This document shows positions 1,053 through 37,212 of a stretch of DNA of 64,000 bases, piece after piece; position 1 is the stretch's first letter, and each line of letters opens with the position of its first letter. Where the stretch lies: contig CM073321.1 of the NCBI GenBank assembly GCA_037043015.1, positions 30,296,101 through 30,360,100 of the forward strand, read 5' to 3'. The position numbers and the translations under genes are program-made. The notes beneath the pieces were generated by a model, which saw only the letters and a program-made list of their open reading frames with translations, was not told where the DNA came from and did no database searches. This DNA comes from Bryum argenteum. Taxonomy: Eukaryota; Streptophyta; Bryopsida; Bryales; Bryaceae.

Positions 1053-3389
1053 TTGCGACAGTTGTTGAACGAGAAGATCAAGATGGGAATTTTGGAGCCG
1101 TCTATTACACCATATTCTAATCGGTGGTTTACGGTGCCAAAGAAAAATGGAGCATTAAGGTTTATTCAAGACATGCAACCGGTGAACAAGGTAACTATTC
1201 GGAACATGGGATCAAGTCCAATTGTTGAGGAGTTTGCGGACGCATTTGCAGGAAGATCAATTTATTCGATGGGAGATCTTTATTCGGGATACGACCAATT
1301 CCAATTGGCGGTGGAGAGTAGAGATTTGACTACGATGCGGACGCCATTAGGTTTGGTGAGGATGTGCACATTACCGCAAGGAGCTACTAATTCTGTGGCA
1401 TACATGATGAATGGAATGAACAAGGTCTTGAGGGATTTTATTCCGGAAAAGACTATGCCATTTCTTGATGACGTGCCTATCAAAGGATGTGGGGAAGAGG
1501 ACAAAGATGAGACGTTGGATTTGAAGGGGTGCCGGAAGTTTGTTGCGGATCAAATTGCCGATTGTGACAAGATCTTGACAAGATTAGAGGAGGTTCATCT
1601 AACTTTATCAGGGGTGAAATCAATGTTTGGAGTTGAAGAGATTACGGTGGTAGGGCATATGTGTGGAGCATATCGTCGCAAGCCATCCATGGAGAAGGTG
1701 GATGCCATTCAAAAGATGAAGGAGTGCGCAAATACGATTGAGGTACGTAGATATTTGGGAGCATGCATCTTTTATCATATTTGGATACCACATTTTGCAC
1801 ATGTGGCGGATTCATTATATCTTTTGTTGAGGAAGGGACAAAAGTTTCAATGGAGGGTGGAGCAAAGCAAGTCCATGAAGAAATTGAAGAAGCTTCTTTC
1901 ATCTCCACCAACATTGAAGAAGGTTGACTACGACTCGGGAAGACCGGTGGTAATTAAGGTGGATGCAAGCCCAATAGGGATTGGATGGGCAATTGGCCAA
2001 GATGATGGTAAAGGAAATAGATTTGTGGTACAATTTGGTGCAAAGGTTTTGAACTCTTGCCAACGGGCCTATGCACAAGTGAAGAGGGAGCTTTGGGGAA
2101 TTGTTACGGCCATGAAGCATGAGAAGGAGTATTTGATTGGTGCATCAGTGGTTGTCGAAACGGATTGTCTACCACTACTTGGAATGATTTCAAGTTGTTC
2201 TACACCGGATATTGCTATGTTAAAGTGGATAGCCTACATCAAGTCAATGAATCCAAAGTTCAAGCACATTGCGGGGAAGGACAATGCGGTGGCGGATATG
2301 TTGTCACGGGCAAGGTACGAGGATGAAGAGCACATGGTGGACTAAGATAAAGATGTTGGCACCAATTTTTATACCATGGCGTTAGTGAAGAAAGAAGGAT
2401 TGTGCTTGGCTACACCACTTGAGGCGTTTGTGGAAGACTTGTATGAGGGAGAATGGCTAAATATTGGGAGATACTTGAGTTCCTTGAAGAAGCAAGAGAC
2501 TTGGAGTGATCAAGAATCAAGAGAATTCGAAGAAAGGCTTGTGGTTACTTTCTTCGAGATGGATTTTTGTGGAAGCATCTGAAGCTAAGGGGTGGAGTTC
2601 CACAAAGAGTTGTATGTGGAATCAAAACTCAAGAACGAATCATCAAGGAGTTTCATGAAGGTTGGTGGGCCGGTCATCGTGGAGTTTGGGCAACATTTGC
2701 CAAAGTAAAGGAGAGATATTGGTGGAAGGGCATCTATAAAGATGTGGCAGACTTTGTAGGATCTTGCGAGACTTGCCAAGTCTATTCAAGTATTCGTCAT
2801 AGAGATGAGTTACATCCAACCTATCCACTAACGATGCATGACAAGTGGGTTGTGGACTTGGTTGCTATGCCTATGGGAATAGGACAAAAGAAATATTTGG
2901 TGCTTGCTTGGGAGGATTTGTCTAACCAAGTGGAAGGAAGGGCGCTTCGAACGAAGACAACCGTAGGAGTATGTCGAAGTCTTTTAGAGAATGTAATTTG
3001 TCGTTACGGTTGTGTAGGGAAGATTACGAAGGATAGAGGTGAATTGGACGCGAAGGAAGCACGAGAGTTCTTTGGCAAGTTGGGTATTAAACTTGCATTG
3101 ACAACCGCATATAATCCGGAGGCTAATGGTAAAAGTGAGCGGGGGCATTCGCCAATTGTGAAAGCATTGGTTAAAGCATGTGATGGTAAGATGCTTGAAT
3201 GGCCTCGATTACTACCATTTGCATTGTGGGCGGATCGAACCACTCATAGCACCGTTACGGGATATATGCCGGCGGAGTTGATGTTTGGACAAAAACCAAT
3301 TATGCCAATTGAAGAGGTGGTTCCAACTTGGAGTATTTTGCCATAGGAGGATGGTCTTACAAGGGAGGACTTGTTGGCATTAAGGATTC
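1053..3389 (+). pseudogene. Retrotransposon A: Ty3-type pol, 5' part (RT, RNase H, integrase)
   Basis: Reverse transcriptase: primer-side block TVPKKNGALRFIQDM, then MCTLPQGATNSVA and the catalytic FLDDVPIKG. RNase H: VIKVDASPIGIGWAIG, a central Glu in VKRELWG, Asp in VETDCLPLLG, ending KDNAVADMLSRAR. Integrase from about 2640: an HHCC zinc site (FHEGWWAGHRG, CETCQ), then the D,D,E core (VVDLVAMP, KDRGELDAK, GKSERG). Lesions are TAA at 2343, a one-base frameshift near 2570, and TAG at 3344 where relatives carry Trp. Translation reads DLLALRI up to position 3388. It continues as RQLERRTEDIEEA only at 37213, so the gene was cut by a 33.8-kb insertion. The host element is a dead Ty3/Gypsy copy. 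Confidence 0.92.
3386..3389. other. Target-site duplication ATTC, left copy
   Basis: ATTC at 3386-3389 abuts the left inverted repeat and recurs at 37209-37212 right after the right one. Removing one copy with the insert rejoins the integrase codons ATT CGA CAA CTT GAA, giving I-R-Q-L-E, the sequence expected from the family. Confidence 0.85.
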
Positions 3390-3417
3390 AACACGTAATT
3401 CGTTATAATGGGAATAT
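3390..3417 (+). repeat. Left terminal inverted repeat of giant transposon
   Basis: It begins AACACGTAATTCGTTATAAT. The reverse complement of 37181-37208 is identical except for one base at the 21st position (G here, A there). Similarity stops after 28 bases. Confidence 0.9.
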
Positions 3418-3589
3418 ATACTGATTTTGGTAATTAGGGAGACTTCCATTTAGATCAATTCTGACCTGATTAGTTACCAAATCACCAGGTTTTTAGTGAT
3501 AATGATGAATTTTCTCAATATAAAAGACAATTAAAGAAAGGAATTCATAATGCAAGCTAAGAAGTATGCTCCCCCAAGAGAAAATTTTA

Positions 3590-4284
3590 TTGATATGAAA
3601 GCACAAATACAGTTTATTGGTGTAATTGTGGACCTCCAACAGTTAGGCATTGTATTATCCACCAATCACGACATGGCGGAGAGGAGGTATCACCACAAGA
3701 ATCTGTCTTAGTGAATACATTTTCCTCACTGTGTGTGTATTTAGAAAAGGCAGGTTCGTCCATCTCCATAAGCGCACCACTTCTACGACGCTTCGATGCA
3801 AGTCTCTGTAATAGACGGTGAGTCTCAGACGAAAATCGTGTTGGATGAACGCGAGTGCTTGCCCCAAGAGATAAGGAGCAATGAGCCACAGTATTTGGCA
3901 AGGAACTATTTAGCTTGAATCGAGCTAAATAGGCACGGCCATCGACGACAGAGTTGCGTAATACAGCTTCACCTTGGGGTGCCGCTGCAACCGCGGTCAT
4001 CACAAGGATTCGAATATGGCAGGTTGCAATAATTGGTTGAATTTGAATAGGGGGACTGTCTACTACACCGTCATCGTCATTATCCATGTCCTCCTTCGTG
4101 TAATCTACAGCCGACGCGTCGTCCGAAGCACAGTAGATCAACCGTCCCCGCATTCGTTCTGAGAAAGTTCTGGAGTCCTCACTTGTAATGGAAGCATCGG
4201 ACACCGTTGAAGGACCAATTACAAGATTTGCTTGCAAAGCACATGATGGACGTGGAGAGAGCTGACGTCCAACAACAGCAACCT
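3590..4284 (-). pseudogene. 3' exons of the FCP1-like gene: acidic, KRRR-containing tail
   Basis: Reading leftwards, a plausible acceptor (ATAAACCAG) at about 4285 opens a frame with an acidic run (EDMDNDDDG) and later ASKRRRSG, a possible nuclear localisation signal. It stops at 3614. Two AATAAA polyadenylation signals on the minus strand (about 3588 and 3611) lie at the stop, supporting a real 3' end. One copy of the element's palindrome (3908-3930) falls inside the open frame. In the neighbouring gene these palindromes lie in introns, so a small intron may be present here. The segment follows the phosphatase-like exon and is probably the same gene. No function is recognised for it alone. 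Confidence 0.5.
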
Positions 4285-4483
4285 GGTTTATAAACACACC
4301 CATTTTAGGAAGTGAGTCCATGACACTAAGTGCAATGAAAAAGGTACACAATATAACAACGCATTTAATCAAGTATGTTGAGGGGGGATTCACCAATCGA
4401 TCTACAATATATCTCCATCTAAACAACCAATAAACATAAGGTTTCTAGCGTAAAAATCAGAATAATACCAATGATAAAAGTAT

Positions 4484-5251
4484 TTAAGGCAAATTCTTCC
4501 CACTGATTCGGTCCTGCTTCCACAAATATGGAAGATTACGGCTCAAGAGCATATACAACTCTGAGTCCTTCGACAGTTCATTATGCGTGGGTCTACGATA
4601 CCGCATAGTCTCGTGAAAATTCTCAGGACCGTTCAAATGCACGGCAAGACATATCTCGCCTATCCTTTTTGATAACTCGAACTTTGGCTCCTTTGGACAG
4701 GAATGGTTCCACGGAACAGTGAAAAGTGTGTTCTTAGTGGGAACCGCAATGCAAGTCTCAGACTTGGAATCAACAATGAGCAAGTTATCGTCATTGAAAT
4801 TGGCACCCTTTCTAGGATACAACCACCGTCGAGGATATTTTAAGAGGATGGGATTTGTCGTGCCGGGGTACTTGATGAATGCGTAATTCTTCAACAACAA
4901 ATTATCGCATTGGTTGGAAGCCAAGACAAGTCCAGGGGCAGCGTCTGACTTCGAGAACAAAAAGGAGCAGAGTCCATGGACAACCTTAGGCTCTAGGGTA
5001 CTCCAGACGTGGATATGGCAAAACAAATTTAATAAGCGAAGGAACCCGGTGAATCCGAGACGACAGTAGACGACTCTGCCGGCAACTAAGGTTGGGACGG
5101 TGGAGGAAAACACCGGAGGATTATTAGGATCCGAAAAAAACAGGCACTCTGCAGGCGTTGGGGTAGACACAGAGGCCATCGACCATAGAACCCCGTCCAA
5201 CTCCAACATCACATTCAACCACTTCGGGTCCTGCTTGCAATGAGGGAACAC
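4484..5251 (-). pseudogene. FCP1/NIF-like HAD phosphatase-fold domain
   Basis: The layout matches the NLI-interacting-factor (FCP1) branch of HAD phosphatases. There is an N-terminal hydrophobic strand with LELDGVLW (the family has D-x-D-G-T/V), then FLRLLNLFCHIHVWST (family: Fl..l...yev.iWSs), then a late NLLIVDSKSE strand (family: ..llvDDs) and an Arg/Lys-rich middle. The first catalytic Asp is replaced by Glu (E-L-D), so activity is doubtful. The frame has no internal stop over 255 codons. About 35 bases upstream, retrotransposon B is inserted, and the expected upstream sequence resumes at 20238. In the giant element it lies downstream of, and on the same strand as, the ParB/methylase-like gene. 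It could act on phosphoserine of a nuclear substrate; that is inference from family only. Confidence 0.6.
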
Positions 5252-5283
5252 GTAACAATGGCAAATGGTATTAAAGAAAGAGG

Positions 5284-5288
5284 GTGTG
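5284..5288. other. Target-site duplication GTGTG of retrotransposon B
   Basis: GTGTG precedes the 5' LTR and recurs at 20238-20242 immediately after the 3' LTR. The insertion split the sequence just upstream of the FCP1-like exon. Confidence 0.85.
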
Positions 5289-5885
5289 TGTTAACGGAAT
5301 ATTTGTAGTATATTCGCTAGGCTATTTTTAGTCTAGTCTCTACCCGGCAGGTATAGACCCGGCAGGCGATACCCGGTAGGGTCAGCAAGTCGGTTATCTA
5401 TTTGGCATAGTTAGAGTCCTAAATAAGTTTAGGACACTCGACTTTATGGCTGACTTAGCAGCCAGGTCGGCTGACCTGTTATGCCGAGCTGGATCTGACA
5501 GTCAGTCAGACCCAACCGACTATATGTACCACTCTCTTCTCCGTGAGTGTTGTTGCTAGTCAATCTGTTTCTCTTTTTGCCAGTAACCTCAGAGTTCTGC
5601 ATAGTCTTCTATCTTGTTCTTTCTTTGTGTGTGTTGGAATAGACTAGTTGACTTTTGCTTTGCAGGATCTCTGATCTGTTTGTGAGAATCGTGTGTTTAC
5701 ACTCCCTCTAGCGTTTAGCAGACCCGACGTAAAGCTGTCTGGTCATTCTAGGTATTCACTAGTCGGTAGATTCAACTCTCTTTCCTTCTTGCTAGTAGCA
5801 GGTTTTGATAACCCGACGTTACTGCGACTAGTAGGAAACTAATTTAGACTCGCTAGGGTGTGTTTCCAGAAAAACCCCCTTAACG
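5289..5885 (+). repeat. 5' LTR of retrotransposon B
   Basis: It starts TGTTAACGGAATATTTG and ends CCCCCTTAACG; the last base is A in the 3' copy. It aligns along its length with 18905-20237 once the 749-bp insert in the latter is ignored. Two bases later TGGCGACCTATGC could pair with a tRNA 3' end (primer-binding site). Confidence 0.9.
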
Positions 5886-6142
5886 TTTGGCGACCTATGC
5901 TTGAGTTTGAATCCATTGTTTCCAGATTGCGCAGATCTGAAGTAGAGCAGGTAGATCTCCCGCAACATTGGGCTACCGTGCGATTGTCTGGTCCAGCATT
6001 TTGGATCTGTAAACAAGTAGAAACTGTGTCGGATGCCATGTATTTACTTTATCTTCCCTTACACGTTTATTGGTGTAAAACCCGTGTTCAGGTGACTCGT
6101 GTATCGTTCCAGGGATTCTGTGAAGTGACCAAGACAAGTAGT

Positions 6143-9100
6143 GCTAAAACAACCAAACCCACAAACGTTTCCTAGTCCCAACTCATGTTTTAGCCATGCA
6201 GGGCAAGGGTATCCCTTTGCAAGAGGGGATGCACAAAGACTCTTTCCCTTATGTTTACCGTGGCGGAAACTTCCACACTTAGACTCTACACACACACACA
6301 CACTAAGGCACACATTACGTCCTCACAACTAATCCGTCCTATCCGTCCGAACTAGCAGGTCACGCAGCCGTCCCCCCGGTTACCCTATCACCCTTACTAC
6401 AATGACAGACTCCAAGAGCTCCGAATCCGGCTAGAAGACGTCTACACGTATTCTGGTCACGTACTGCGCTTGATCCGTCCTCTGAGACCACAGAGGAACC
6501 CAAGTCTGTGGCAGCTGGAGGCCGGATTGGAATCCGTCCTCACACACTATACTCCCAGACCCTCCCAGACCGTAAGTGTTTACCACAGCAGTTTCCCTCT
6601 CTCAGACACCTAGACTAGTCCAAGACACAAGGCACTCAAGAATACGCCCAACCCGACTTCAACTCCACAGAAACGATCTAGCAAAGAATCCGGATTCCTA
6701 ACTCCCAACTCATAACACACAAAAGTAGATCCGGCTTTCCAAGCACTCAACTGAAAAAGAGACAGGGAAATGATCACACCGAATATGCGCATAAGAAGGT
6801 TCGATTAACACTCAAGCAAGGAATGTTTTGGTGGACAAAACTCCCACCTATAAGTACTTCTAAGTCAACGACTTAGATCCCTAACTGGATTGCGGCGCCG
6901 GCCTATCAGGCCTACTCCTCAAAAAGCGGCACGCATTCCCCAAAAAGAAAACACTATACTGACCTAGGACGGATACCAATCCGGCCTCCTAACCCTGGCC
7001 GTTCTGTGACAGCCGTCCTCTAAGACGTCCTACCTCTTCCTTCGCGAACTAACTCCGTGCTTCGGCCGCTTCAGTGGCGTCGCTGCGATACGTCCTGCCT
7101 TCACTCTCTTGCCCGTATCGGTTATCACGTACTCGTCCTCGCTGGAGTTAGTCTCGTCCCCGCTCTTCAACTCTTCCTCTTCGGAATGCTCGAGGCCGAT
7201 GTCGTGAAGCTTCTGCGCCCCGGGGGACTTCTCGTATTCCTCGGCCGTGAGCTTCCTCTTCGCGGTGCGAGTGTTTTTGGCCGGAGAGTCTGCTGGGGCG
7301 GATGCGTCCGTCTCCGTCTTCACCTTCGCCTTGCCCTTCGTGTCGGTCGGACTGGAGGGCCCAGCATCCGTCCTCGTTGGATCCGGCCGCGGGGTCTTGG
7401 CCGGAGTAGAAGTGAAGGCGGGCATGACTACCTCCTTCATCTGCTCCCGGACGGCGTCGAGCAGCACCTTGACCTCGGCGTTGCTCTTCTCTACCTTCGT
7501 GGCGTACGTCTTCGCCGCCAAGAGGAACTTCTTGAACGTCTCCGCTTTGAAAACCTCCGACTCTAGGATTCCGGCCTCGAACAGGTTCGCCCTGTGCAGT
7601 ACCTCGGCCGGAATCTCGCAGATTTCCACGAGCTTTACGACCTGCTCGTTTGCCGTGATTACGGCCTGCCTTCCGACCAGGAGTTCCTCCTCCCTTCTTC
7701 TGACCGTCTCACGAAGACGTCTATTCTCCAGGATCAGCTTGGTCACTTGCTTCTCCATTTGTCGAAACTGCTCCGCGTCCGGCTTGGATTCCCACTTCGC
7801 CTTGACCTCCAGCAACGTCTTCACTCCAAATTCTTGGCATAGCTTTGCCAGCAGTCCTTGGTAGAAGAAGTACTGGCACCTGGCCTCCGTGAAGTGGTGC
7901 CATGCTCGCCTCATGGGATCCGGGTGATTGGCGGACGGACTGGAAGGTGGGGGGAGTCGGGGGTCGTTCGGATTCATGGGGTTCTCCCAATCGGCCGTAA
8001 CTTCCCCTTCATCCACCGGCCTCGAAGGCTGGCCTCCCTCAGTCTGAGTTCCGGCCTCGGTCGGGTTCGTGGGAGGGGACGGGGACGGAAGGATGATTAC
8101 CTCTGGACGCGTCCGCGGTGGGGTTGCCTCCGGAGCCGGCTCCTCTGGTGCGTCGGGTGGAACGTCCCCGTCGTCTGATCCGACCTCGTCCTCCTCCTCT
8201 TCCGAGTACACGGCCTTGCTATCCGTACTCTCCTCCGACTCGAACACACCGTTGTTTTGCGACGATAGCGCGATCTCATAATTCGACTCCTCCTCCTCCG
8301 TCAGCACCTCCTCCTTCTTGTACAGGTGGTAAAGGAAAGGAGTAATAGGGCTAGGACGGGTTTTACCTACGTTCTCCGCAAGCCGGGCGACCAAGTCGCG
8401 GATGATCATCCCCCAGTCCGCCTCCCGTTTGCCGCGCAAGGAGCCCAGGACGGTGTTGGCCAGCCGTACGGTGATCCGGTGCGGCTTCTCTCCGTGAATA
8501 ATTGGCGCCAAGAACTTGATGACGGCGCGCTCCCTCGGATTCCTGCAATCCTCGATCGAGTAGCCATTGTTCTTGTGCGGATCCCCGTAGAACGCCTTCT
8601 TCGCCTACTTGTGTTTCCGGCCGCATAACCCTACTCCGTTGTTTACGGTCAGGCCGTAAACAGCTCTCCAGTGGTCGGCCGTCCAGGAAGCCGGCTTCCC
8701 TCTAACCGTCCCCTCGAATTGGTTTGGCGCTCCGACCTTGATCTCGCGCACCATCTCCGCGTCGCGCAAACCCCAGGGCGTATCCAGCAGGCCGGCTAAC
8801 CCCATCCTCTCGAGGTCTTCCGTCAAGGACTTCTTCTCATCCTCCTCGATCGGAATACACGGCGACACGAGCTTGATGGAAATCTTCAGCTCCTCTTGCT
8901 CCTGAGCGGAAGTGGACGCCGTTCCTGCCATTGGAAAGTAGTGCGACAAGAAATACAAGGTCGCCGGGCTGAGATCGGCCAGTGGGCCGGATCGGAGCTA
9001 GGGACGGAAAGCAGAAAGATGGAGGACAGGAGCGCAAGACGACAAGGGGCGCAGAAAACGAGGAGGCAGGTGACGACAAGGGCGGACGGGTTGCCTTATA

Positions 9101-9479
9101 TCGAGGGGGCCGGAGTTAAGTCCGACCATCATGACATGGTCCGCCGCCATCATTATCCTCACCGTACGGAGTCGCCTTCTGGATTTCTCGCCTTTATTAA
9201 ATTCTTCGCCGCTCCGTCCTTCACCTACCATCATAACTCCTAATCCGTCCTCTGACAGCACGTCCTAGCCGTACGGGGACAGAGTACGGATTGGCAAATC
9301 CGTCCTACTTAACACAAACTAGATTTTAACTAATTCCTTTATTCGTAAAAACGTAATTGCCTTATACTATACGGCTTAGCAAATACATAGGTCGGATTCT
9401 AAACACTATACTTATTCTTAATGCGCATTAAAACATAATGGCCAAAAATCGAAAAAACGGGGTCCGACAAACTGTGTAG
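6143..9479 (-). mobile_element. Minus-strand element nested in the leader of retrotransposon B
   Basis: In minus orientation it starts TGTCGGACCCCG (near 9479) and ends GCACTACTTGT (near 6143). About 230 bp at its start and 700 bp at its end match, in the opposite orientation, the sequence at 59899-61434. Between them is a long minus-strand frame (7030-8931) that the second copy lacks. The TG start and repeated ends suggest an LTR-type or terminal-repeat element, but I could not find a clean target duplication, so the exact ends are uncertain. Confidence 0.65.
7030..8931 (-). pseudogene. Retroelement protein with a plant-transposon-protein-like fold and coiled coil
   Basis: The frame opens with MAGTASTSAQEQ at 8931 and runs to the stop at 7030, broken once by TAG (8605) in phase. 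Residues 60-190 contain WTADHWRAVYG, then YSIEDCRNPRERAVIKF, RITVRLANTVLGSLRG and DWGMIIRDLV. This spacing resembles the putative plant transposon protein family found in plant retroelements. It continues as an acidic, proline-rich stretch, a coiled coil (about residues 370-470), and a basic end (KRPKHGVSSRRKR). The extra 3' frame of retrotransposon B (15762-18574) shows a similar order of parts. Function unknown; related plant proteins are accessory, not catalytic. Confidence 0.6.
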
Positions 9480-9920
9480 AGCATGCCGACCCAGATGTCG
9501 ACCCTGTACAAATCTGCTTTGAAAGTGTCTGCTATAGAGTTTTAGAAGTATGCAACCTACCGGTCGGTTGGCACAAAAGTTGCTGCCATCAAGGTTTCAG
9601 CAAAAATCTGTCTCCTACACTCAACAGCATCTGACCCAGTCAGGTGGAGTACGGCAACATAGCTAAAGCGCGCCTCGGAGATCATAGCCGCTACATGTCT
9701 ATCCAGCAAAAGTAGAGTCGTCTAAGAGTGCTAAGAAATCTGTAGAGCGGTGCGTGGAAGAAGCTCACGGTGCCAAAAGAGCAACTAAGTGAACTCACAC
9801 AAAACACCAGCCAAGCAGACGGCAGCGCCAGACTCTACCTGCCAGATCCAGATTCAGATCTAGATCTGGATCGAGATCCGAAAAAACCGGATCTCGATCT
9901 GAAAGTGACACGTCACCATT

Positions 9921-11447
9921 ATGACGGGTCCACGCACGCGTGCTGCCGGCTCTCCTGAGCCAGTTGACTTACCACCCAACCAGCTAGAAAATTCCAGACT
10001 GTATCGGGAATGGAGTAGGTTGCAGTCCTGGATAAATCCGACTTCAGACACCCGACAGTCGACCCCAAGGGCCAACCCCCTCCCGACATATAGTGTCAGA
10101 AGACAAGTCTCAGCATCCACGTCGGATGAAGCGTCCCTGCACCACCTGGTCGAATACACCCAAGGTATGACGGACGTCCCAGAAGGTACAGTCTTTCACG
10201 AAACGTCTTTTCCAATGAATCGTGGCAGGTATACCGACCCGACCCGACCTGTGGCCAATTTGCCACTAACATCGTCAACAGCGGATCAATACACCCGACC
10301 GAGTGTGGCGACACATACGATTTCGAACCCATCAACGCCCCGACAGAACCGGGACGACCAACCACCACTTCCTGACCGACCGTCTAGTGCCAACCAGCGG
10401 CTTGTCAGGTACAATCTTGACCCGTCCATCATTATGCAAGAGCGTCAGCACGAAATTGATTTACTACGTAGTAGTCGGGCCGAACTCGATCTCCGTCTGG
10501 CCACTGTGTTGTCTAACCCGGGCCTGGCAGAGCACCCGCCCCTACCAGGTCGGACCCCGCAGTCGGCATCATCTTACCGAGAACCTAGTTCTCCTGGTCC
10601 AATGATGAGCCGACCGGGTACACCCCCAGAAGAAAGTCCGTCCCCGACTGCTAGACAGGAGTTCGACCTCCATACGGTCCATCAAATACAGACTATATAT
10701 AATCAAGGAGTCGACCCGTTAGCAGTCAGACCCGCCCTACCCAACATTCGCACGCACCCACCGGACGTATTAACATTAGATCCGCCCGTCAACCTTCCAC
10801 TCGACCATAGAATGTCGACCCCACAGGCTTTGACCCAACACCGTCATCAGGCACAGCCGGCACAACGGGTCTTAGTTACCCAGCCGACCGCCACACCTGT
10901 ATCATCCTCGACTTTTTCCTGGCCATTCTCAGCCAACACTTATGGTCGACCGGTAGACCCACAGTCACTACCTATGCAGGCTGTGAGTCTACCAACTGCA
11001 CCTATACAAACGGTCACCCGACCAACCACCCTACCCCATTCATCGGTGTGTACGTACTGTCACACCCCGGGCCATACTATTGAATACTGCCCCTATTTAG
11101 AGGCACCCAGACCAACAGCACCAGGTCCGGCACCACCTGTCTACCCGGCAGCGGTAGGACCTACTTACGCAGTCGTTCCAAAACCGTCTCCAGCCCCGTT
11201 CAATTTGAAGATGACAAACGGCACCTTAGCCCGCCCTAAGGGGCTACTACGGGATGTCAGGATCCACATCCATGGCATACCTTACGTAGTGACGATGGTG
11301 GTGCTAGACTGCTCGACAGTCAAATCGGACTACCGATTGCTGCTGGGTCGACCCTGGCTCCGGCATGCTAAGGTAATCCATAATTGGGGTAATAATGAAG
11401 TGCAGATCATGGGGAATGGCACAGTTAGGACTGTCAAAATCAATTGA
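9921..11447 (+). pseudogene. gag: Retrotransposon B gag with CCHC zinc knuckle and remnant of protease
   Basis: It starts MTGPRTRAAGSPEP at 9921. The protein is Pro/Thr/Arg-rich, as in Ty3 gags, and carries CTYCHTPGHTIEYC (C-x2-C-x4-H-x4-C) at about residues 375-388. After this comes a retropepsin-like end with LLGRPWLRHAKVIHNWG, but no D-S/T-G active site is visible upstream, so the protease looks truncated. A TGA at 11445 and another at 11610 interrupt the frame, which continues in phase into the RT region at 11751. Gag and pol were therefore probably one polyprotein. Confidence 0.85.
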
Positions 11448-14189: not shown

Positions 14190-14191
14190 TC

Positions 14192-15208: not shown

Positions 15209-15761
15209 CACGCAGGAGCAGCGAGAACAAGACGGAGTTGCCGGCGCAAACCCTACCTGGGTCGGCAGGAGAGAAGTGGACGGGTGACGCGCAGCCGGGG
15301 TTTTTGCGCAACCGACATTTGCCAGCAGCGGCGAGCATCGATCGGTAGCACGGAGGGATCAGCTCGCAGGCGCGAGAGTTTGCGCCGTGCCGACGGCCAA
15401 CGGCAGCCACCATCAGGCACGGAGGACGCGATTCAGCACACCTGTCCGAAAAGCGCCGCCGTCTTTGTGCCGGCAGCGTTTTTTAGGGTTTCAGAGGAGG
15501 AGCGGAGCAGCAGCGCGCAGTTTCACGGTACCGACGTTTTGCAGCCGGTTTAGATTGTCGCTCCGCCGAAGCCAGCAGAGAGGCACAGACAGGACTCCTG
15601 CAAACCCTACCGACATCCGCCAGCATCGTCCTCGGTCGACCGTGCAGCAGATTCACCACAGCGGCGGCGCACTTCTGGAGAGACCGACCAAGTTCACGTT
15701 ACGGTAACAAAGTCGCCCACTCTTTTCTGCATGTCGAGTCCTTCCGCACACAGATTCTCCG

Positions 15762-20472: not shown

Positions 20473-20478
20473 TTTATT
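20473..20478 (-). terminator. Polyadenylation signal AATAAA of the ParB/methylase-like gene
   Basis: On the minus strand ATTCAATAAAATTG lies about 90 bases after the stop codon of the gene ending at 20568. It also separates that gene from the FCP1-like gene. Confidence 0.6.
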
Positions 20479-20567
20479 GAATGATGTTTCAATAAGTACA
20501 ACGTTTATAAGTGTACTATGTACAAAAAGCGAAACAACATCCAATAATTTGGAGACTACTCGTCGAC

Positions 20568-25806: not shown

Positions 25807-25902
25807 CACTGTCATTCAAAAAAAACCCCATGTAAGATTCATATAATATACACGCACATCAGAGAAGTATAAATTGCAAGTCTTGATTCAATGGCGAGAT
25901 CA

Positions 25903-26540
25903 TTTAGCTCAAGTCGAGCTAAATCGGCTTGAGCAGAATTCCTATTTTTTGCGCAAAATTCTTATTCTTGAGAAGAATTCCTATTCTTGACCTCAAAACG
26001 AGGTTAGCGACCATTTAGCTCGACTCGAGCTAAATTGGCTTGACCTGTAATCCAGTAGCAAGTCCATTTACCTCGACTCGAGCTAAATGGACTCGCTACT
26101 TGGTTTCAGGTCAAGCCCATTTAGCTCGAGTCGAGTTAAATGGGCTCACTACTTGGCTCCAGTTCAAGCCCATTTAGCTCGAGTCGAGCTAAATGGGCTT
26201 GACCTATGAACGAGGTTCGCCACCATTCAGCACAAGTCGAGCAAAGTGGGCTGGAATTACAGCCAATTAGTGAGCCCATTTAGCTCGACTCGAGCTAAAT
26301 GGTCTAGGACCTTGATTGAGGTCAGGCCCATTTAGCTCGAGTCGAGCTAAATGGGCTCACTACTTGGTTGTAGTCCAAGCCCATTTAGCTCGACTCGAGC
26401 TAAATAGTCGCAAACCTCGTTTGAGGTCAAGCCCATTTAGCTCGAGTCGAACTAAATGGGCTTGCTACGTTGTCTCAGGTCATGCCTATTTAGCTCGACT
26501 CGAGCTAAATGGGCTCACTACTTGGCTGTAGTCCAAGCCG
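25903..26540. repeat. Hairpin array 1: about ten palindromes at a 52-53 bp pitch
   Basis: Each unit holds arms ATTTAGCTCGA and TCGAGCTAAAT around one central base (C or G), usually extended by GCCC...GGGC. The intervening text varies (ACTTGGCTGTAGTCCAA, CTTGACCTATGAACGAGGT) and is itself partly inverted between units. One degenerate unit (about 26226-26250) shows ATTCAGCACAAGTCGAGCAAAG. The array lies just upstream of the start of the ParB/methylase-like gene. Confidence 0.93.
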
Positions 26541-27213
26541 AGGACAAGCAAATGGCAAGTTGAGCGCAGCAGGCGCAAAGCAAACGCGGAGCAGCACAAG
26601 ATTGAAGAGAGGATGAGCGGGGGAGCTCGCAGGTTGAGCGCAACAGCAGCAAAACCTAAAACAAGAGCACTATGGTTGGAACCTAAATTAATTCGTAGGA
26701 AATCAAAATCAGGTGGGTAGAGTTATTTTGAAAACTTAAAAAGGACCCCTATAAAAATGATGGTAATATTTATAACTTGTGAAAAAAACGACTTTATATG
26801 CTATGAGTTTTTTGCAAAAGTTTTAATACTTAAAACTTTGAATAATAAGTGAAATGTAAATAAATAAAATACGAAAATAAGATTGTTGTACTTGTATTAC
26901 TTTATAAGAACCTTAAAAATTTGAAAGTATCCTACAAATAAAATATAGGGGTAACGAGTCTACATTACATCATCTACATTAACCCTCTTAAGTTTGTATA
27001 AGGAAGTGATTATCATTTCTAAAATACCTAAAGAAAACCATATATTTGTAGTGAACGTGTTAAAAATATTATATGCTAAAAGAAACTATTTGTAGAAAGA
27101 AATGAGAATTCAATAATCCGATAGAATTTGAAGTAAGTAAAAAAAAAAAATGTATGGGCAACAAGAGAGTGTAACTAAGTGGTTTTTACAACTTTAATAG
27201 AAAATAAATTCTT

Positions 27214-27216
<3 letters not shown>

Positions 27217-27258
<42 letters not shown>
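27217..27258. repeat. (TA)n microsatellite
   Basis: About 21 uninterrupted TA dinucleotides. Confidence 0.95.
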
Positions 27259-27262
<4 letters not shown>

Positions 27263-30131
27263 GAAAGATTTTCAATTCAACTTTCTTATAAATCATGAAG
27301 GTATAATGTTCAAAGATGGAAAATAAGTTTTTTTTTTGTTCTTGCATAATGATTTTGGTATATTTCGTAAACCCAAAAAATCATTTTCTGAAATAGCGTT
27401 TTTTTCCATTTCTTATTTATATTGACTTTGCAATGTTGTCTTAAAAAATAACTTTAACTCTTTGATATTATAACCTCTAAAAAAATTTGATCTTTTACAT
27501 AGAGATATGCAAAAATTCATTAAAAATAGGAGAAAATTAAAATCACAATTTTCTGTGAGTTTGAGCCCTTTTTGGAAAAGAGATAATTCTAAACGAAATT
27601 TAAATTGAAATTAGCATATATTGCACTTGTGTGCAATATACACATTCATTGCTCTAAAAGAGCCTCAAACCTAAACTCCTAATCAATAGTGAATCGTGAA
27701 ACATGTATGCCTTTCTTCGATTTGTTAGCCAATTCTTAGGCTCCCATTTCAACATAAAATTTGTTGTATTGTGAGTTATTGTTCAATCGAATGTATGAAC
27801 AAGTAGTGATCACCCGTAAATTGCAAAACAATAATTACCATTAATTTTAATTTACTTAATAATAATATAGAAAATTAATATTTATTTATTCAATTTAGTT
27901 TTCTGAATCTTTACATTAACTTTTGAAAACATCATCATAAGATTTATGGTCTTCAGGTTATGGAACTTAGTTTTGTACATGACGTTTCACTTTTAACTAA
28001 TGTTATCATGAGTAATATAAGCAATTTTAATTAGAACTGAATCGGTCGATTAATTCTAAAGCGCCTTAATAGACTCTAAAGATCATTTATAAAGATGAGT
28101 ATATTGTAGATAAATAACCATACTATATATACAGGTCTAAGCCAAATTACTGTTTTCAAATGCAAACTAGAGACATTTAAAAACTAATTTGAAATCCCAA
28201 TCGTATTTAAAAAACTTAATTTTATCATTTTATTTAAATTAGTGCATTAAACTGCAGTCTAAAGAAATTCACTTTGAATCCGATTATCTATGATTGTCTT
28301 AAAATGAAATACAAAAGACTTCTTTACTAATATAATTGTTCAAAAGTCTAAATACAAACTTTAGATCCTTAAATGCAAACTTAATACTAGAAGTACAAAC
28401 TTAGAACCAACAAGTACGAACTTGGAACCCGCTAGTATAATTATAGTATAGTATTAACTTGACACTTCTGGTCCTCTAGTACAAACTAAGAACACTCAAA
28501 TATTTATTTAGGATCTAAACTGAATTTCAAAAATCTAATTTTATAATTTTATTAAAATTAATGCATAAATCCAAAGTTTCAACAATTAGGATCGTATTAT
28601 TTATATTTTCATTTGTGTCGATCATAATTCACAAGGAAACTTTAACGTCCAATGTGACGGGCGACATTGTAAAATTTGAATCAAGTAAGAAGAACCCCTT
28701 GCGCTTCTACTACATCGCCTTCTATACCAATTGCTTACATTTCTTGCAAAAAATATGAGGAACGATACTTAACTTGTTTTGAATTTCAATTTCGCATACC
28801 TAAGTTCGCATAGACAAACCTAAGTTTCTTAAGATAGTAAGATACAGAATTACAAAAAAGATATTTTTGATTCTAAAGATTTAACTTTTATTAGTAAAAC
28901 GTGCTTCATGTTTTATATACACCAATCCTTATGTAATTATTCTCTAATTCAACTTTATTACATTATTGACTTTTATTAGAATAAACTTTTATAAGATCCT
29001 AAATCTATTATAAATGTTATAATCTTCACAAACTCGTAAAGTTCAATGTCCTCTCACTACAACCTGCGTAGGTTGGTATGCTCATAACGTTATCAATCTT
29101 CATTGTTTTAAGTTTTCACATCTGGCATATTGCATAGAGATTATAGTCCGTGCTCAGAGTTCTTTACTAATTTGCTTCACTGTTTGTTTAAAATGGTTCT
29201 ATTTCAAAGTTAGGATAAGTTTTACTATAACAACGTAATTATCTAATTGAAAAGTTTAAACTTTAAATTATTTCACCTACATTAAGTAATTTTGTATGCA
29301 ATAAGCATATTGTTAGCAAAGAATAGAATAAAGTATTAACGCACAATTAAAATTGCATTTAATTTATGTATGACGAATGCACATGATTACTAATCTACAT
29401 TTCCTCATTTAGTAGGGAAATATCCTAATGGAACAAAACATTATAAACATTCACATTCAACTATTACAACTGATAGACATTATATATTATTAAAAAATTC
29501 AAAATACAATAGATTATTCTATTGATATAATAACTATTATTTAAATATAAATTAATGTAGTGATATAGTATATAATAGCATATTCAGTAATAGTTAATAT
29601 ACTTTAATAAGAAATATATTTTCATATAGTACAATATGGTAAAACAAAACATATTAGTATATTAAACAAAAATTAATCTAAACACCTTAATCTTTAATCA
29701 AAAATTAATACTTAAGTAAAGAATATACAAATAAACAAGTAATGACGATTTCACATAAATATTGTGGTAGGGTAAACATGGCACATGTAAAAAAATAATG
29801 AAATTTAAAATTTAATGCACAACCAATACAATTAATTCGCATAGCTTAATATACAAATTTCCTAAAATCAAATGTGCCATTTGCAAAGATTTTACAGAAG
29901 CAATTATCAGATTGATTCAATGAAAGAACCAAGCGGAATCAAGTAGATCAATCCTACAATGATCTACTTGATGAAACGGAGGCTGCAGCAAATCTACCGG
30001 GAGAAGAGCTTCCAAGAAGCGCAAGAAGGAGAATGAGCGGGAGGATTAGCTAAAGTAACATGAGCGAGGAGTAGGAGCAGAAGACAACGGCGGAATAGCG
30101 AAAGGAGATGTACGCGGGGAAAGTGGAGAGT

Positions 30132-30180
30132 GCGCTACGAGAGTGAATGCGCTACAAGAGTGGATGCGCTACGAGAGTGC
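30132..30180. repeat. Three 17-bp tandem repeats
   Basis: GCGCTACGAGAGTGAAT is repeated three times with few changes in a GC-richer island. Confidence 0.85.
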
Positions 30181-32470
30181 TCAGTTAGAGTATAGAATTT
30201 AGGCTATAAAATTTAAGAATTAAGGTTTTGGTTAATGTGTTAAGGGTTCAGGATTAAAGATTAATTATTTTTGAAGTTAAAGAATAAGGATTGAAAAGTA
30301 AACATAGAAGTTAGATATCAACTTTATATTAAAAAGCGTAACTGCGGATACATTCTAAATTTTTGAAAATAACTTTGGAATACTATAATATAAAAATCAT
30401 CTTAGCATAAGAATTGAAGTAAAACAAAATATTATTATGTTTGAATATCACACATAGAATACTAAACTTCTAAAATATATTTAGTTACTGAATGTTAACA
30501 AGACTGAATTTTAAAGCAATAATATTATATTTTAAATATCATATGTGGAAATAATAGACTTGAAAAAATACGTAATAAACTTATAATTTCTCAACTTATT
30601 CACTATCTAAATACCTATATAATATTATATCACATAAATATCTTGAATATTATGTTTATAATGGCCATTTGTAGAATATCACATTCAACATAATTGAATA
30701 TCATACGTAATACACCACACCTAATTAAGTAGAAACTAATCTTATAGAATCACATTTAAATAAGTTGAATATAATATTTACTATAACTGTTTCAACGTGT
30801 AAAGTATTAATCTTTTAATATTACACGTAATTTAGAAAATACGAATCTTACAATACTTCACATCACCTGTCGATTTTAATCAATTAAGCATAAACGCTAG
30901 GCTTAAAGGCTTAGCAAATGATAATAGCGTCCAACATTTCACATGTTAATTCACCTAAATAAACCTAACAATTGTTATGATGAAAATATGGAAGTAAAAC
31001 AAATAGATTCACATAATTAGTGTATTAATAATTCTACTCCCATTTGAATACTGTACCACAACTTTATGAAACTTTTCGAAGTTTTGCGTACTTAATTTAG
31101 TATAAAGTAAAACTAAATCATTCAAGACTATATGAATCCAAGGTACACGACGGGAACAATTTGTTTTCCCTCTAAACATTTATTCAGTATAAGTTTCATG
31201 TAATTTAATCATTTTCATGTTTTTCTTCCTATACTCTATTTAAGGTAATCTAATAAACTAAGGTTCAAATAACAAATGATTCTATCTCTTTAACAACTAG
31301 ATTGAAGTTTATTTTTCTCGTTGTGTAGACGGATGAATTGTGGTAAAGAATGTTTGCAACAATGGTAAAAGTTTTATTATTATAGTTATTGGTTTTAAAA
31401 ATAACAAAAGTTAAGTTAGTTATGGTTTAGGGTTTAGAGTTTTTCATTACGGTTTTATGGTTTGATGTAAACTTGACTAATTTCTTTACTAATAATACAT
31501 TAACTCGCCATACATTAACTCGCCACAAAAATTAGTTTCTCAAAATTCTTGTTTAAATAAAATCCATGTAAATGAATGCCTTGGTAAAAACTACCGTAAA
31601 TTTTACAAAGGAAAAATAGTCGAAAACTAGAACCTTTGCATTAAATTTCATGCCTTATCTTCAAAACATCTTAGATCTAGTTGAGGTTTCTATCACTTAG
31701 ACTAGATTGTATTTATAGGCCATCCCAAATAATTAAGTTAAAATCCAACGGTGGATGAAGGAGATATAGCTCCTCAAATATCATCCATTTTGTTACTTTT
31801 TATGTTGACGAAACATCATTGCAAATCGAATAGCAAAATCATTATGATCAGTAAACTTGTCACTATAAAGTTGTTAAGAATCATCTTAAGATTATAACCA
31901 TAAAAAAGCAAATCATGAAAATCTATTTTTAATTTCACATAATTGGCTTGCAATGATAATACATGTTCCATGCTTAGAGTTCCATTAAAATAGAAGAGCT
32001 CTCTTCACTAAAGTGCAGTCCATTAATTCATACTTTATTGCAAATTTTACAATACAAACTAGTCTTGATTTGGAGCATAACCCAAGTGATTTCATCCAAA
32101 ACGAACCTCGGATGAAGAAGTTATGGCTATTCAAAGTTCTGCCTTCCATCCAAAATGTCGTTATTCGACATTCGGCGCATTGAGGGGTTAACATTCTAGT
32201 GCCCAATATGAGAATATTTTGTTAATTTGAGTTTGGGTTATCCATTTTCCTCGCGAATCCGGTTTTTTTTCTTACAATTATGTAATTTCTATTTTTAGAA
32301 ATATTCCAATTTTCACGGTGTCTTAAATTCAAATAATTTTTACTCCCCCAAGATGTCTCCGTTCCTCCCAAAGTTCTTGTGATGTCCCTGTTCCTCGTAA
32401 AGTTCCCCGTTCCTACCGAAGTTCCCAATTACATCGCTTTTACTCAAAACTCTTTGATCGTTACTGCCCT

Positions 32471-32515
32471 TTTTTGGCGCCTTTTCTTTGTTCAGTTCGT
32501 GCTCTTTTTGGCGCC
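32471..32515 (+). promoter_or_regulatory. Two E2F-like sites upstream of the DUF7869-like gene
   Basis: TTTTTGGCGCC occurs at 32471-32481 and again at 32505-32515. Both contain TTTGGCGC, which fits the E2F consensus TTTSSCGC. A CT-rich stretch follows (32560-32720), as in many promoters. If functional, expression of the putative transposase would peak at S phase. This is a motif match only. Confidence 0.4.
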
Positions 32516-33097
32516 AATTCTCCTCCCGCTTGGTGTTGCTCGCTCTTCTTTCTCATTGCGCATTATCCCGCTTTACGCTCCTCTGCTACTCCGCTCCTTT
32601 GCTCTTCCGCTCCTCCGCACCTTCGTACCTTAACTTATTTGCCCTTCGCCTCACCTCCGCACCTCCGCATCTCTGCCCTTCGTCTCACTATACTACGTTT
32701 CGCCTATACTCCGTTTTCCATTTGTGCTTCCGGTTTAGTAAATTGTGATTAGGGTTTGGGACTCTTAGTAGCTCTGAAGTTGATGCGCGTGCTGCTTTTG
32801 AGGATTCCCAGGACCTTCGTAAAAGTATTGCTGTTGTCGGGCACGGCGTGAGGGTGAGTTCGATCAGTAACCCCAATTTCAATGTGTAACAAGAATTTGT
32901 TGTTGGTTGGTCATTTGTTGCCTTCATTGTGGTGCATTCCTGATGGCAAAGTGGATTTCGTCGGAGTTGGTGTGCACGGAAATCGAGGCAAATATACTAT
33001 TTTACTTGTGCACAGTTCCCAAGAATCAAACTCACAAATTACTGTGCACGAATATCGAGGCAGTTTCTTATAACAAATGCATGAAATATGGACAAGC

Positions 33098-33690
33098 TCA
33101 TTTAGCTCGACTCGAGCTAAATGGGCATCCACATCCAAATGCTTCGAGTTCACGAAGTCTTGTATTTGAATAATTTATTGGACGACCATTTAGCTCGACT
33201 CGAGCTAAATGGGCGTCCAAATCAAAACGCTTCGACTTCACGAAGTCGTGTATTTGATGAATCATTGGAAGACCATTTAGCTCGAGTCGAGCTAAATGGT
33301 CATCCAACTAAGTGTTATTTGTTTATTTTGATAGATGATTGTAGGAAAACCATTTAGCTCGAGTCGAGCTAAATGGTCTTTTTCATTCACATGCATTGTG
33401 AGCGTGCCGAACAGTTTACCTGATGCCCATTTAGCTCGACTTGAGCTAAATGGGCTTCAAGATAACTGTCTATCACTCACTCACGATGCACGTGTATAAT
33501 GAAGACCATTTAGCTCGACTCGAGCTAAATAGTCTTCCTTTTCGACATGTTTCGGGATAAGCGTGATTTACAATGATCTTGAAGACCATTTAGCTTGACT
33601 CGAGCTAAATGGTCCTCATTATTCACGTGCATCGGGGTGAGTGATGGTCAGTTAACTTGAAGCCCATTTAGCTCGAGTCGCGCTAAATGG
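33098..33690. repeat. Hairpin array 2: eight palindromes at a 76-88 bp pitch
   Basis: Palindrome starts are at about 33100, 33188, 33275, 33352, 33429, 33509, 33590 and 33666. Flanks differ between copies but pair within a copy: for example GGAAGACC with GGTCATCC, TGAAGACC with GGTCCTCA, and TGATGCCC with GGGCTTCA. The array sits at the 5' side of the DUF7869-like gene, probably in its first intron. Confidence 0.93.
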
Positions 33691-33779
33691 TCATACATTC
33701 CCAATGGTCATAGAAATTTGTGACTGCAGGTATATTAAGTTACCATTGATTTCGCATGATAGTGTGTTTATTGCTGGCA

Positions 33780-36758
33780 TTCAGGTAATCATAGAGTTGA
33801 GTGAATCCGAAGGCGACGGAGATTTTCAGCGTCTTTTTTCTGAGGTATTTGACTTACTTCTTTTGCTTAATATATTTTTGTCTAGAGTTTATCCATTCGT
33901 ACTAATTTATCTTTGTTTGTGGTCTTATAGGACTTGGATGGTCCTTCCGAGCTTGTTCTTCCGGACGATTTAAAAGATTGCCCCGGACTGCCCAGAAGTA
34001 AATGGGATACGAAATTTGTGACACTTCTCAACGATAGTGGGGACGTTGTTGGTTAAGGCATTTGTCAGACTTTGGACGCTGAAAGAATGTTAAAGAGTAA
34101 TGACGAGCCTGTATGTGAAGATCAGGTAGTTGTGCAGATTGTGAAGTGCTTGAATTTGGACTTCGTACCTACTGAGACCATATATGGAACTAGGAGTTAG
34201 AAGCTTAGCCATGCAATCCATGTGGGTTGGCCACTACTCGATCATTTACGAGTGGATCAATTTAACATAGCTCTTTATGTTTGCGATCATCCAAATATAA
34301 AGGGGGTGCGACCGTATGAGTTGGGACATCGGAACTCAGGATCCTTAAGGACCAAGAGAGAAGAGGAGCTTCTGACGATAGATTCAGTCAACTTGGTTGC
34401 AAGCAAGATTTGCTGCAGCAAGAACTGTTGCCAACCTTTTCCTCGAGATAAAATTTTGGCTCTCCAAAAGTAGATGTACGAGGCGTCGGGTTTTAAATTT
34501 AAGTCACATTTCAAGATAGATGTTCATAATCGTTTTCATCAGGCACCAGACGGCACGATGATGGTAACGACTGAAGGCAATGATGTTTGCGCGCGTGCAT
34601 AGCAACATATAAGTGGAGTTCCGATTTCAACATTCTACAGGAGGAAGGCAGAAGCTGCAGCTGGACTACGTGCTCGCCACCATGGGAATGTTGGTCAAAA
34701 GAAACCATGATTGCATGTTAAGCAAGCTGTAGCTACTCTGAAGACATTCATTGACAATGCTGCTGATCATATGCCTCACAGGACGAAGATGTTGACATCT
34801 GGTGAGAAGGTTGTGTCTCGGTCCTTGCCATCGTCCTTTAGATGGAAGGATGCCATACCCGGGATCAATGACATCAATGAGAGGTTGGGCTTGAAGTCCA
34901 TTTCTCAAAGCACACTGAGCAGGATTAGGAGGTCAAAATTTTCTGAGTATTGAAAGAAGGCGCCGGGGGACAACTTTGCTCGTTGCTCAACTTGTAACAG
35001 GATTTCTCAGAGCACACTTAGCAGGAGACAATGATTAAGTCTATGGTTCCTGATTCATGTGAAGTGAATATGTGGATCAAGAAGCTTGAAGAGCATTTGC
35101 ATCATCAAGAAACGCATCGTGAGTATTATTACTCAAATCGTTCTCTTTCTATTCTGAGGCCGAGAGATGTCCTTTGTATAATACATGACAAAATGGATCA
35201 TGTGAAGACTGCCTGCCCTGTATTTTCACATAAAACAAAGGCAAATGATGCATTGATGAAGCTTCCAATTGCTGTGACTGGCATGATTGCTCACGGGCAT
35301 AGCGATGTCCGGTATGCTCATTATGGGCTCAATATTTATCCAAGTGATTGCAATCACACTGTTGGATCAATATAAAAGCTTTTATGAGATCTAGAAGGTG
35401 TTCTGATCTCGTATTCGAAGTCATTATTCGCAAATTCGGGGTCGCTGCCTTTATTTGAAGCTGTATTGTTAGAAAAAGAAGGGTGTTTGAACTCTCTTCT
35501 ACCTGAAAGTGAAGTTTCTGGGGTGGCAGAGCCTCTACCTCCTGTCTTGCATGTGCAACTGGATAACGCAGCTTCTGACAACAAGAATAGTTTTATGTTT
35601 TGCTTTTGGTCTCTTCTGGTACACATGGGTGTGTTCCGTAAAGTATATGTCAATTATTTTGTTAGTTGGACATACCCATGAAGATATTGACGCCCTCTTC
35701 GGACGTTGGAGCATGAATCTCAAAGAGAATGACTTTCTCACACTTCCTCAGTTGATGAAGTCATTTATGGACGCAGAGTCTTTGCTGGTTATTCCTCATT
35801 TGATAGAGGAGATACCAAACTTCAAGGGTTATATCAAAGAATACATTGGTTCTAGAGATGAAATTCTAGTTGGGCATTCGGAGGGTCAGCAATTCAAGTT
35901 TTACAAGCATAACAATGGATGGCCCATGATGCAATATAAGACAGTATATGCACAGACAATGAGTGGTTACCTTCTACTAATGGAGGTATAAAATTGTGGA
36001 AAGAGGACCGAAGTACAGGAAAACCATCGTTACCTACAGGTGAGATGAAACCTTTGGCGCCCATTCCCATGAAGAACCGTGATGACATTGTAAAAGGCAT
36101 TGGAGGGTTTATTAAGATGTGGGAGACTTCAAGTGCGGAGGACATATCTGGAGAATTTCGTCGGCGTCATGAATTTGTTATTTGCTATTGGCGAGCTGTG
36201 AAGCTTGCATAGGTTGAGCCTATAGAAGTGTCTTCATTTTTGAAGAACGGGTGTTGGCCTTTAACTCGAGTACCTGCGACACGAGAATTCTTAAATACTG
36301 GCGAATTGCGAGAGAAATATGGGCGTGATCCGCACTTTATCGGACGGTTGTGTGATAGACCAAGGGAGTCGTTTCGGGTTGGTCGAGATGTTTTTGCTGG
36401 ATATTTTGTAGCTCTACGTCCAGCCGATGGGGATGCTCGTCCTTTTTGGATTGCTAGGGCTATAACTGATTTTGATGTTGATCACAACTATCCAGGCTGT
36501 ATTCATATGCAATATTTTCAACCTACATCAAAAAATAGTGTTGTTCACGAAACCTATGTTGGTTGGAATACGAAGAAGACTTTCAAATGGACAGTTGAAG
36601 ACACTCACATTCCGGAATGGCTTCATGCTGATGCTATTTTTACGTCATGGAAATCAAGTGCAAAACTTGGCTCTCGGCGTCCGATTATTTCATTATCGGA
36701 GCGTCAAATCGACATCATCAAACAAAGTATTGAGCGGTTCGGCGGTGGAGAGGAGTAG
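33780..36758 (+). pseudogene. DUF7869-like putative transposase of the giant transposon, decayed
   Basis: A spliced start (exon 33786-33842, intron, exon from about 33931) leads into one frame to about 34980. That frame has stops at 34054, 34198, 34471, 34600, 34708 and 34951, then a Cys pair NFARCSTCNRI. After a frameshift come RPRDVLCIIHDKMDHVKTACP (35160-35220), stops at 35373 and 35385, HVQLDNAASDNKN, and after another shift VGHTHEDIDALFGRW. A last frameshift near 35980 gives KLWKEDRSTGKP, a TAG at 36210, and the end at 36758. The order Cys pair, DKMDH, QLDN..NKN, GHTHEDID is what I know from proteins labelled DUF7869, which look like RNase-H-fold transposases with Asp at QLDN and acidic residues in GHTHEDID. 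It is the only transposase candidate in the giant unit and sits next to its right end. Confidence 0.68.
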
Positions 36759-37180
36759 CCTGACATCCCTAGTTTATTTGGGCATGCCAATTTAGCTCTA
36801 GTCGAGGTAAATGACCTCAGTGCAATTTGAGCTATCAATTTATCGTGTCGTGACTTTTTGCCAATAGATTCATCTTAGAAATGCACGTAGAAGTCCTCCC
36901 TCTTATCTTTGCTAGCGGTTGATATCCGTAGTTAAGTATTGGTACAGTTGTTGTGCCTTAAAGGTCAACGATTCAAGTGTTTGTAATTTTTCGGAGTTGA
37001 TTGTCGATTCCCAGTTTAATTGAGTTTATCGTTTTATTGTGCTCTTTTTGCAAATTGCTGTCGGGATGCATTTTGCGTTTGCTACTTTCATCATCTTTTG
37101 TATTCAATTTAGCTCTACAATACGCGCGTTTAGCTCGATACATATGTTGGAATTTAGATCGATTGGTTTTGAGCGTTTGA
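36759..37180. other. Right sub-terminal region of the giant transposon
   Basis: No gene. Degenerate palindrome relics occur at about 36790 (AATTTAGCTCTAGTCGAGG) and around 37108-37140 (TTTAGCTCTAC, TTTAGCTCGATA), so the motif reaches almost to the right inverted repeat. Confidence 0.6.
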
Positions 37181-37208
37181 ATATTCCTATTATAACGAAT
37201 TACGTGTT
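37181..37208 (-). repeat. Right terminal inverted repeat of giant transposon
   Basis: Inverted copy of 3390-3417 with one mismatch; followed by ATTC at 37209-37212. Confidence 0.9.
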
Positions 37209-37212
37209 ATTC

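Follow-up and report, generated by a model that had tools for sequence, protein, structure and literature searches.

A DNA transposon family of the moss Bryum argenteum with a DUF7869 gene, accessory genes and a constant internal palindrome

The window analysed here is a stretch of 64,000 nucleotides of the Bryum argenteum genome (assembly GCA_037043015.1, contig CM073321.1, positions 30,296,101 to 30,360,100 of the forward strand). It contains a DNA transposon with terminal inverted repeats (TIRs) that is inserted into the integrase gene of a long terminal repeat (LTR) retrotransposon. The element is best explained, with a probability of about 0.88, as a member of an abundant TIR transposon family of about 14-20 kb that has received a nested insertion and carries a conserved module beside its transposase. 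This module is composed of an accessory gene (gene 2), a gene for a NIF-like phosphatase and a 21-bp palindrome, which recurs in the gene 2 introns and is arrayed in front of both gene 2 and the transposase frame.

The limits of the element are exact. Its TIRs (3390-3417 and 37181-37208), with the ends AACACGTAATTCGTTATAATRGGAATAT, match at 27 of 28 bases and are flanked on both sides by the target-site duplication (TSD) ATTC, as a first-pass annotation of this DNA had reported.

3386..3389, left TSD ATTC (from the sequence and from uninterrupted sites elsewhere in the genome)
3390..3417, plus strand, left TIR AACACGTAATTCGTTATAATGGGAATAT (genome-wide matches are given below)
37181..37208, minus strand, right TIR (from its identity to the left TIR)
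37209..37212, right TSD ATTC (from the sequence)
3390..37208, whole DNA transposon together with the nested retrotransposon, 33,819 bp (from TIRs, duplications and uninterrupted sites)

When the flanks are rejoined without the transposon, an open integrase frame (...LALRIRQLERRTEDIEEAIKRL...) is restored in phase, which bears out the earlier description. A 300-bp query made of the joined flanks was searched against the same genome, and 18 of 18 candidates were scored. Nine of them are uninterrupted copies at 97-99% over positions 1-300, six are further uncut copies of greater divergence (68-70%) and one is a partial match (213-295), whereas the window's own halves match positions 1-154 and 147-300, abutting with the duplication. 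Since these two matches abut and uninterrupted copies exist, both flanking halves belong to one retrotransposon copy; their origin from two different copies is ruled out by the uninterrupted sites, whose presence in other retrotransposon copies had been predicted.

The transposon is smaller than its outer limits indicate, since 14,949 bp of the 33.8 kb belong to an LTR retrotransposon that entered it later and is flanked by a GTGTG duplication of its own. After its removal the DNA transposon proper measures 18,865 bp.

5284..5288, left GTGTG duplication of the nested retrotransposon
5289..20237, plus strand, nested LTR retrotransposon, no part of the DNA transposon
5289-5884 and 18905-20237, plus strand, LTRs of the nested retrotransposon
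11613-12962 (RVT_1) and 13440-14186 (H2C2 and rve), domains of the nested retrotransposon (Pfam)
20238..20242, right GTGTG duplication of the nested retrotransposon

The ends of the nested retrotransposon are TGTTAACGG...CCTTAACA. Its LTRs are 97.2% identical across 290 columns and 90.0% identical across 311; the 3' LTR (18905-20237) contains about 750 bp of inserted sequence. A single giant transposon of 33.8 kb, reverse transcriptase included, would agree with the one pair of TIRs and TSDs that encloses the whole stretch, but the nested stretch has its own LTRs and its own duplication and is present in none of the eight other aligned copies (A-D and F-I, judged on whole or partial alignment rows), so that this reading retains practically no probability. 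The length given in the first-pass annotation was inflated by the nested insertion. The order of events is that the DNA transposon entered the integrase gene first and the second LTR retrotransposon entered the DNA transposon later; the correction of size is a warning that nested insertions can be misread as giant transposons. Outside the element, at 59936-61434, the window also holds inverted partial copies (85-98%) of the 5' internal region (6134-9430) of the nested retrotransposon.

The 28-bp end pattern has 1,232 matches in the genome (609 + 623, with up to three mismatches), while a reversed-pattern control gave 0 + 0. Copies A-I were chosen from zero-mismatch TIR pairs 13-20 kb apart and are therefore biased toward young, complete copies; the eight others measure 13,742 to 19,690 bp. 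A 4-bp duplication, each time of a different sequence, is present in all seven other copies for which both flanks were obtained, that is, in 8/8 copies tested when the window is counted. Further copies with the same ends and 4-bp duplications had been expected from the single element. Inverted repeats, a TSD of constant length, many copies and uninterrupted sites, the marks of a TIR (class II) transposon, were all found. The window's contig (C1), one of 25, makes up 44.1 of 258.8 Mb, 17% of the genome, and the family is strongly over-represented on it: 45 of the 70 exon-1 copies of gene 2 are found there, as are 33 of the 40 best matches to the left end. This contig may be a sex chromosome or a chromosome that otherwise rarely recombines.

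No Pfam match to the Polinton genes for type-B polymerase, packaging ATPase and capsid was obtained in the 20 larger frames of the window or in the frames of the copies. The TSD of Polinton/Maverick elements is 6 bp according to the available part of PMC10045372, whereas it is 4 bp here in 8/8 copies. A Polinton/Maverick is thus excluded by gene content, as far as scanned, and by TSD length, and the earlier rejection of that class holds for the frames scanned. Searches of the open-licence PMC literature, a scope with Repbase and subscription papers outside it, showed no moss or new plant DNA transposon that fits this family; the first-pass opinion that the family is undescribed is compatible with that literature and extends only as far as it does.

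The interior of the element consists of two divergent gene groups separated by AT-rich DNA. At least two non-transposase genes, AT-rich filler and hairpin arrays had been announced, and all are real: the genes are gene 2 and the NIF/FCP-like phosphatase gene, and the arrays are formed by the palindrome.

3614..4444, minus strand, putative frame of 276 amino acids (aa) that holds one palindrome (3909); a 261-aa frame is also present in copies B, C and E
4484..5283, minus strand, frame of the NIF/FCP1-like phosphatase type, interrupted by the nested retrotransposon (window E 0.0037, below cut-off)
20722..21811, minus strand, gene 2 exon 5 region with approximate limits, acidic and coiled-coil-like
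21872..21892, single palindrome between gene 2 exons 4 and 5
21944..22546, minus strand, gene 2 exon 4, 3' end provisional
22590..22749, four palindromes in gene 2 intron 3 (22590, 22659, 22694, 22729), at the same position in other sources by translation
22795..24135, minus strand, gene 2 exon 3, 447 codons with one TGA (seven homologues at 59-79%)
24176..24196, palindrome in gene 2 intron 2
24273..25603, minus strand, gene 2 exon 2, frameshifted in the window copy, with 13 stops in the frame read
25632..25652, palindrome in gene 2 intron 1
25696..25806, minus strand, gene 2 exon 1, which reads MPRTKQTARIVQMAA...
25903..26509, array A, ten palindromes upstream of gene 2 exon 1
26600..32300, AT-rich filler that separates the divergent gene groups (GC 0.26-0.33 over 26-32 kb)
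33101..33687, array B, eight palindromes, probably in an intron, upstream of the transposase frame
33931..36758, plus strand, DUF7869 transposase gene, broken by stops in the window copy (Pfam; the equivalent frame of 933 aa, P0001, is open in copy B)
36791..36811, palindrome-like site, 33 bp past the transposase stop

P0001 matches DUF7869 (PF25273) with 145.2 bits against a curated cut-off of 26, and the window fragment matches it with 61.2 bits. At E ≤ 1 P0001 has no other Pfam match, neither to MULE or rve nor to another superfamily domain (KDZ, CMCT, hAT, PHIS). One homologue, P0102, gives a weak match to Transposase_23 (En/Spm TNP1; E 0.023, below cut-off). The search for solved structures found no match for the transposase, and the Tudor-like (26-105) and MazF/chromo/BAH-like (807-910) domains of some weak model rows are not claimed. 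Among the 107 transposase homologues, the six with an organism name all come from Ceratodon purpureus or Physcomitrium patens, and no paper in the open-licence PMC literature names DUF7869. We infer that the DUF7869 protein, with its putative integrase-like core, is the catalytically active transposase; it would move the element in a cut-and-paste manner, generating the 4-bp target duplications.

The palindrome TTTAGCTCGASTCGAGCTAAA is the most constant part of the module. The window contains 27 sites (up to four mismatches), all of them inside the DNA transposon and none in the nested retrotransposon or in 30 kb of flank. Array A upstream of gene 2 accounts for ten of them, array B for eight and gene 2 introns 1-3 for six; the remaining three lie between gene 2 exons 4 and 5, behind the transposase stop and in the left 276-aa frame. 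The nine copies together have 287 sites (up to three mismatches) and shuffled copies have 0. Per-base identity in these copies is 91-99% throughout the core, except at its S centre, and mostly 30-79% outside it, the exceptions being two positions five bases out, a G (92%) and a C (95%). Genome-wide, 4,929 exact sites were counted (control 0). Of the 100 that head the list, 90 have a landmark of the element no more than about 20 kb away, and the 10 not tied to one are around C1:380-387 kb, 480 kb and 1,120 kb. Just past exon 3, the translations LARVELN/K or FSS(S/T)RA are the palindrome read through, and they recur in both families described below and in 4/7 gene 2 homologues from other sources, so that the palindrome is held at the same place across species and families.

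The cluster of palindromes at C1:813-826 kb belongs to another family (family 2), which also has gene 2 and the NIF-like protein. Compared with the window's family (family 1), identity is 33% in gene 2 exon 2, 34% and 24% in two parts of exon 3, and 28% in the NIF-like protein. No transposase was found within the 28 kb of the family 2 locus (C1:802001-830000); another family 2 copy has one that is 46% identical to P0001. The locus contains no 14-mer inverted ends, and family 2 is known by its NIF-side TIR alone (AACCCCATATTCGTTATATTGGGAAATATG; 146 matches, control 0), which is similar to that of family 1 but distinct from it. The palindrome core does not change between the two families; its flanks differ and stay self-complementary (CCA..TGG in one and CAG..CTG in the other). 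A further TIR variant, AACCTCGTATTCGTTATATTGGGAAATATG, adjoins palindrome clusters at C1:1050137, 1582385, 2239360 and other places, which suggests a third family or subfamily.

Proteins of the NIF/FCP1-like phosphatase type are characterized by the motif DxDx. The window frame has Glu in place of the first Asp of this motif; the Pfam match is above cut-off in copy I (E 6.7e-5) and reaches E 9.1e-13 in family 2. A solved-structure match for the NIF-like protein was not found. As for gene 2, spliced exons 1-3 as a homology query retrieved nothing at E ≤ 0.001, and exon 3 alone retrieved the seven homologues. Two likenesses were noticed by eye, a ParB-like DGQHH (NGQHS in family 2) in exons 2-3 and a PGG..AGTKP..AG segment recalling degenerate DNA-methyltransferase motifs; neither obtained profile, PDB or structural support, and they are not claimed.

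The beginning of gene 2 resembles the tail of histone H3. RTKQTAR is read in exon 1 of 7/9 copies, and copy E has RTKETAR. Genome-wide, M-x-RTKQTAR occurs at 65 places, 52 of them MP, 12 MA and one MS; the MA places are presumably histone H3 genes. A pattern that leaves the middle codons open lists 70 exon-1 copies, 51 of which keep MPRTKQTAR (family 1), and pN/pS across eight codons of this region is 0.32 (68 of 70 rows). The gene 2 alignment excludes copies D and A; both selection tests exclude copy D, those on gene 2 also copy A, and the exon 2 pN/pS covers 233-244 codons. The family 1 protein probably starts with MPRTKQTAR, because a likely splice acceptor stands directly before TGATGCCG. 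Against such a start there is an in-frame ATG three codons upstream. No H3-like exon was found in the family 2 locus. Judged on sequence alone, the likeness is a striking match and makes gene 2 a candidate mimic at most.

An element-encoded protein, for which gene 2 is the best candidate, might act at the dense palindromes of the non-coding parts and so keep the element's own chromatin open, in an anti-silencing role like that of VANC. The element repeats its motif densely in introns and upstream regions, which is the layout of the VANC system of Arabidopsis VANDAL elements, and by this analogy we consider it possible, at somewhat less than even odds, that the module works in the same way with gene 2 as the anti-silencing protein. 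What speaks most against a strict VANC model is the fixed motif: the palindrome core is unchanged while the proteins are only 24-46% identical between families, so that motif and protein have not diverged together, and this speaks for a host factor or a nucleic-acid structure. That the H3-like N-terminus of family 1 contacts H3K4 readers or writers would fit its sequence and is a long shot. The most far-reaching proposal is doubtful as a whole: in a new moss transposon superfamily a VANC-type system, its motif frozen, would have arisen for a second time, gene 2 would recognise the invariant palindrome and, in family 1, a counterfeit H3 tail (PRTKQTAR) would recruit or block the H3K4 machinery. 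If an element did provide its own anti-silencing and an H3 mimic, it would stay open, and hundreds of copies could accumulate, above all on one chromosome.

The palindromes could instead be sites of a conserved host DNA-binding protein, a transcription or chromatin boundary factor, that the element uses as promoter or insulator, leaving another task to gene 2. An identical core beside such divergent proteins and the arrays upstream of both gene groups agree with this; sites in host DNA would also be expected, yet all 27 of the 64 kb are in the element and the listed exact sites lie near landmarks in 90 cases and are unassigned in 10, and we regard a host factor as rather unlikely. An RNA reading, in which hairpins in introns and leaders serve splicing, nuclear retention or escape from small RNAs, appears improbable. 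Four sites folded as RNA gave -11.7 to -26.1 kcal/mol (z -3.3 to -8.0), but any DNA palindrome folds alike. At the outer pair -1/+1, a fraction of 0.91 of 293 sites is complementary where 0.66 would be expected, and flanks that differ between families remain self-complementary; however, the units of an array are duplicates of one another rather than independent observations, the signal from pairs weakens beyond -2/+2, and in the core three double changes keep the palindrome against four that do not, beside 158 single changes.

The palindromes might also bind the transposase for synapsis, for which the subterminal repeats of CACTA elements offer a parallel. In 9/9 copies the left end has a site at a distance of 519-522 bp and the right end has one at 417-480 bp. 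Most palindromes are far inside the element, however, and in the family 2 locus about 2.5 kb separate the NIF-side TIR from the palindrome nearest to it, so that this explanation is very unlikely.

Two other features lie elsewhere in the window. An open frame of 721-722 codons at 43649-45814 matches a RING finger weakly, short of the Pfam cut-off (E 4.9e-5), and a tandem repeat at 48954-49412, whose units measure about 179 bp (92%), is related to the sequence at 47.8-48.0 kb.

Among known systems, Ginger elements have the ends TGT...ACA. The ends here are AAC...GTT, and P0001 has no rve match. Ginger1 and Ginger2, as described in the available parts of PMC2836005 and PMC10045372, share with this element the TIRs, the 4-bp duplications (4-5 bp in Ginger2) and, probably, an integrase-like core fold. 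The fungal TET/JBP DNA transposons also have an accessory gene, thought to counter methylation (PMC12730594, available part); no TET/JBP gene is present in the frames scanned here, and that part of the report mentions no palindrome arrays. Among the homologues of the transposase are DUF7869 proteins of Ceratodon purpureus and Physcomitrium patens, which are 48-52% identical over their full length or nearly so. They are annotated just as hypothetical or DUF proteins, whereas the frame described here sits within defined element ends; DUF7869 proteins, many of them deposited as hypothetical, thus gain a concrete element with ends, duplications and uninterrupted sites.

The nearest functional parallel would be VANDAL21 and its VANC protein. 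As far as the accessible text of PMC5735166 and PMC10398659 goes, VANC21 binds motifs in the introns and upstream regions of VANDAL21 and removes silencing, and VANDAL21, like the present element, is a large plant DNA transposon with a transposase, accessory genes and a short motif that is dense in introns and upstream regions and enriched in its own copies. The transposase is of the MULE type there and of the DUF7869 type here, with no MULE domain found. The VANDAL motif, in the same sources, is a directional 9-mer that changes fast, in contrast to the perfect, invariant 21-bp palindrome of the moss element, whose function is proposed by analogy. The likeness is presumably due to convergence. 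In the literature searched, sequence-specific anti-silencing by transposons was found only for the Arabidopsis VANDALs, and the same layout with another plant transposase, its motif fixed while the proteins change, raises the questions of whether systems of this kind have evolved more than once and what keeps the motif constant, both of which can be tested directly in moss laboratory models.

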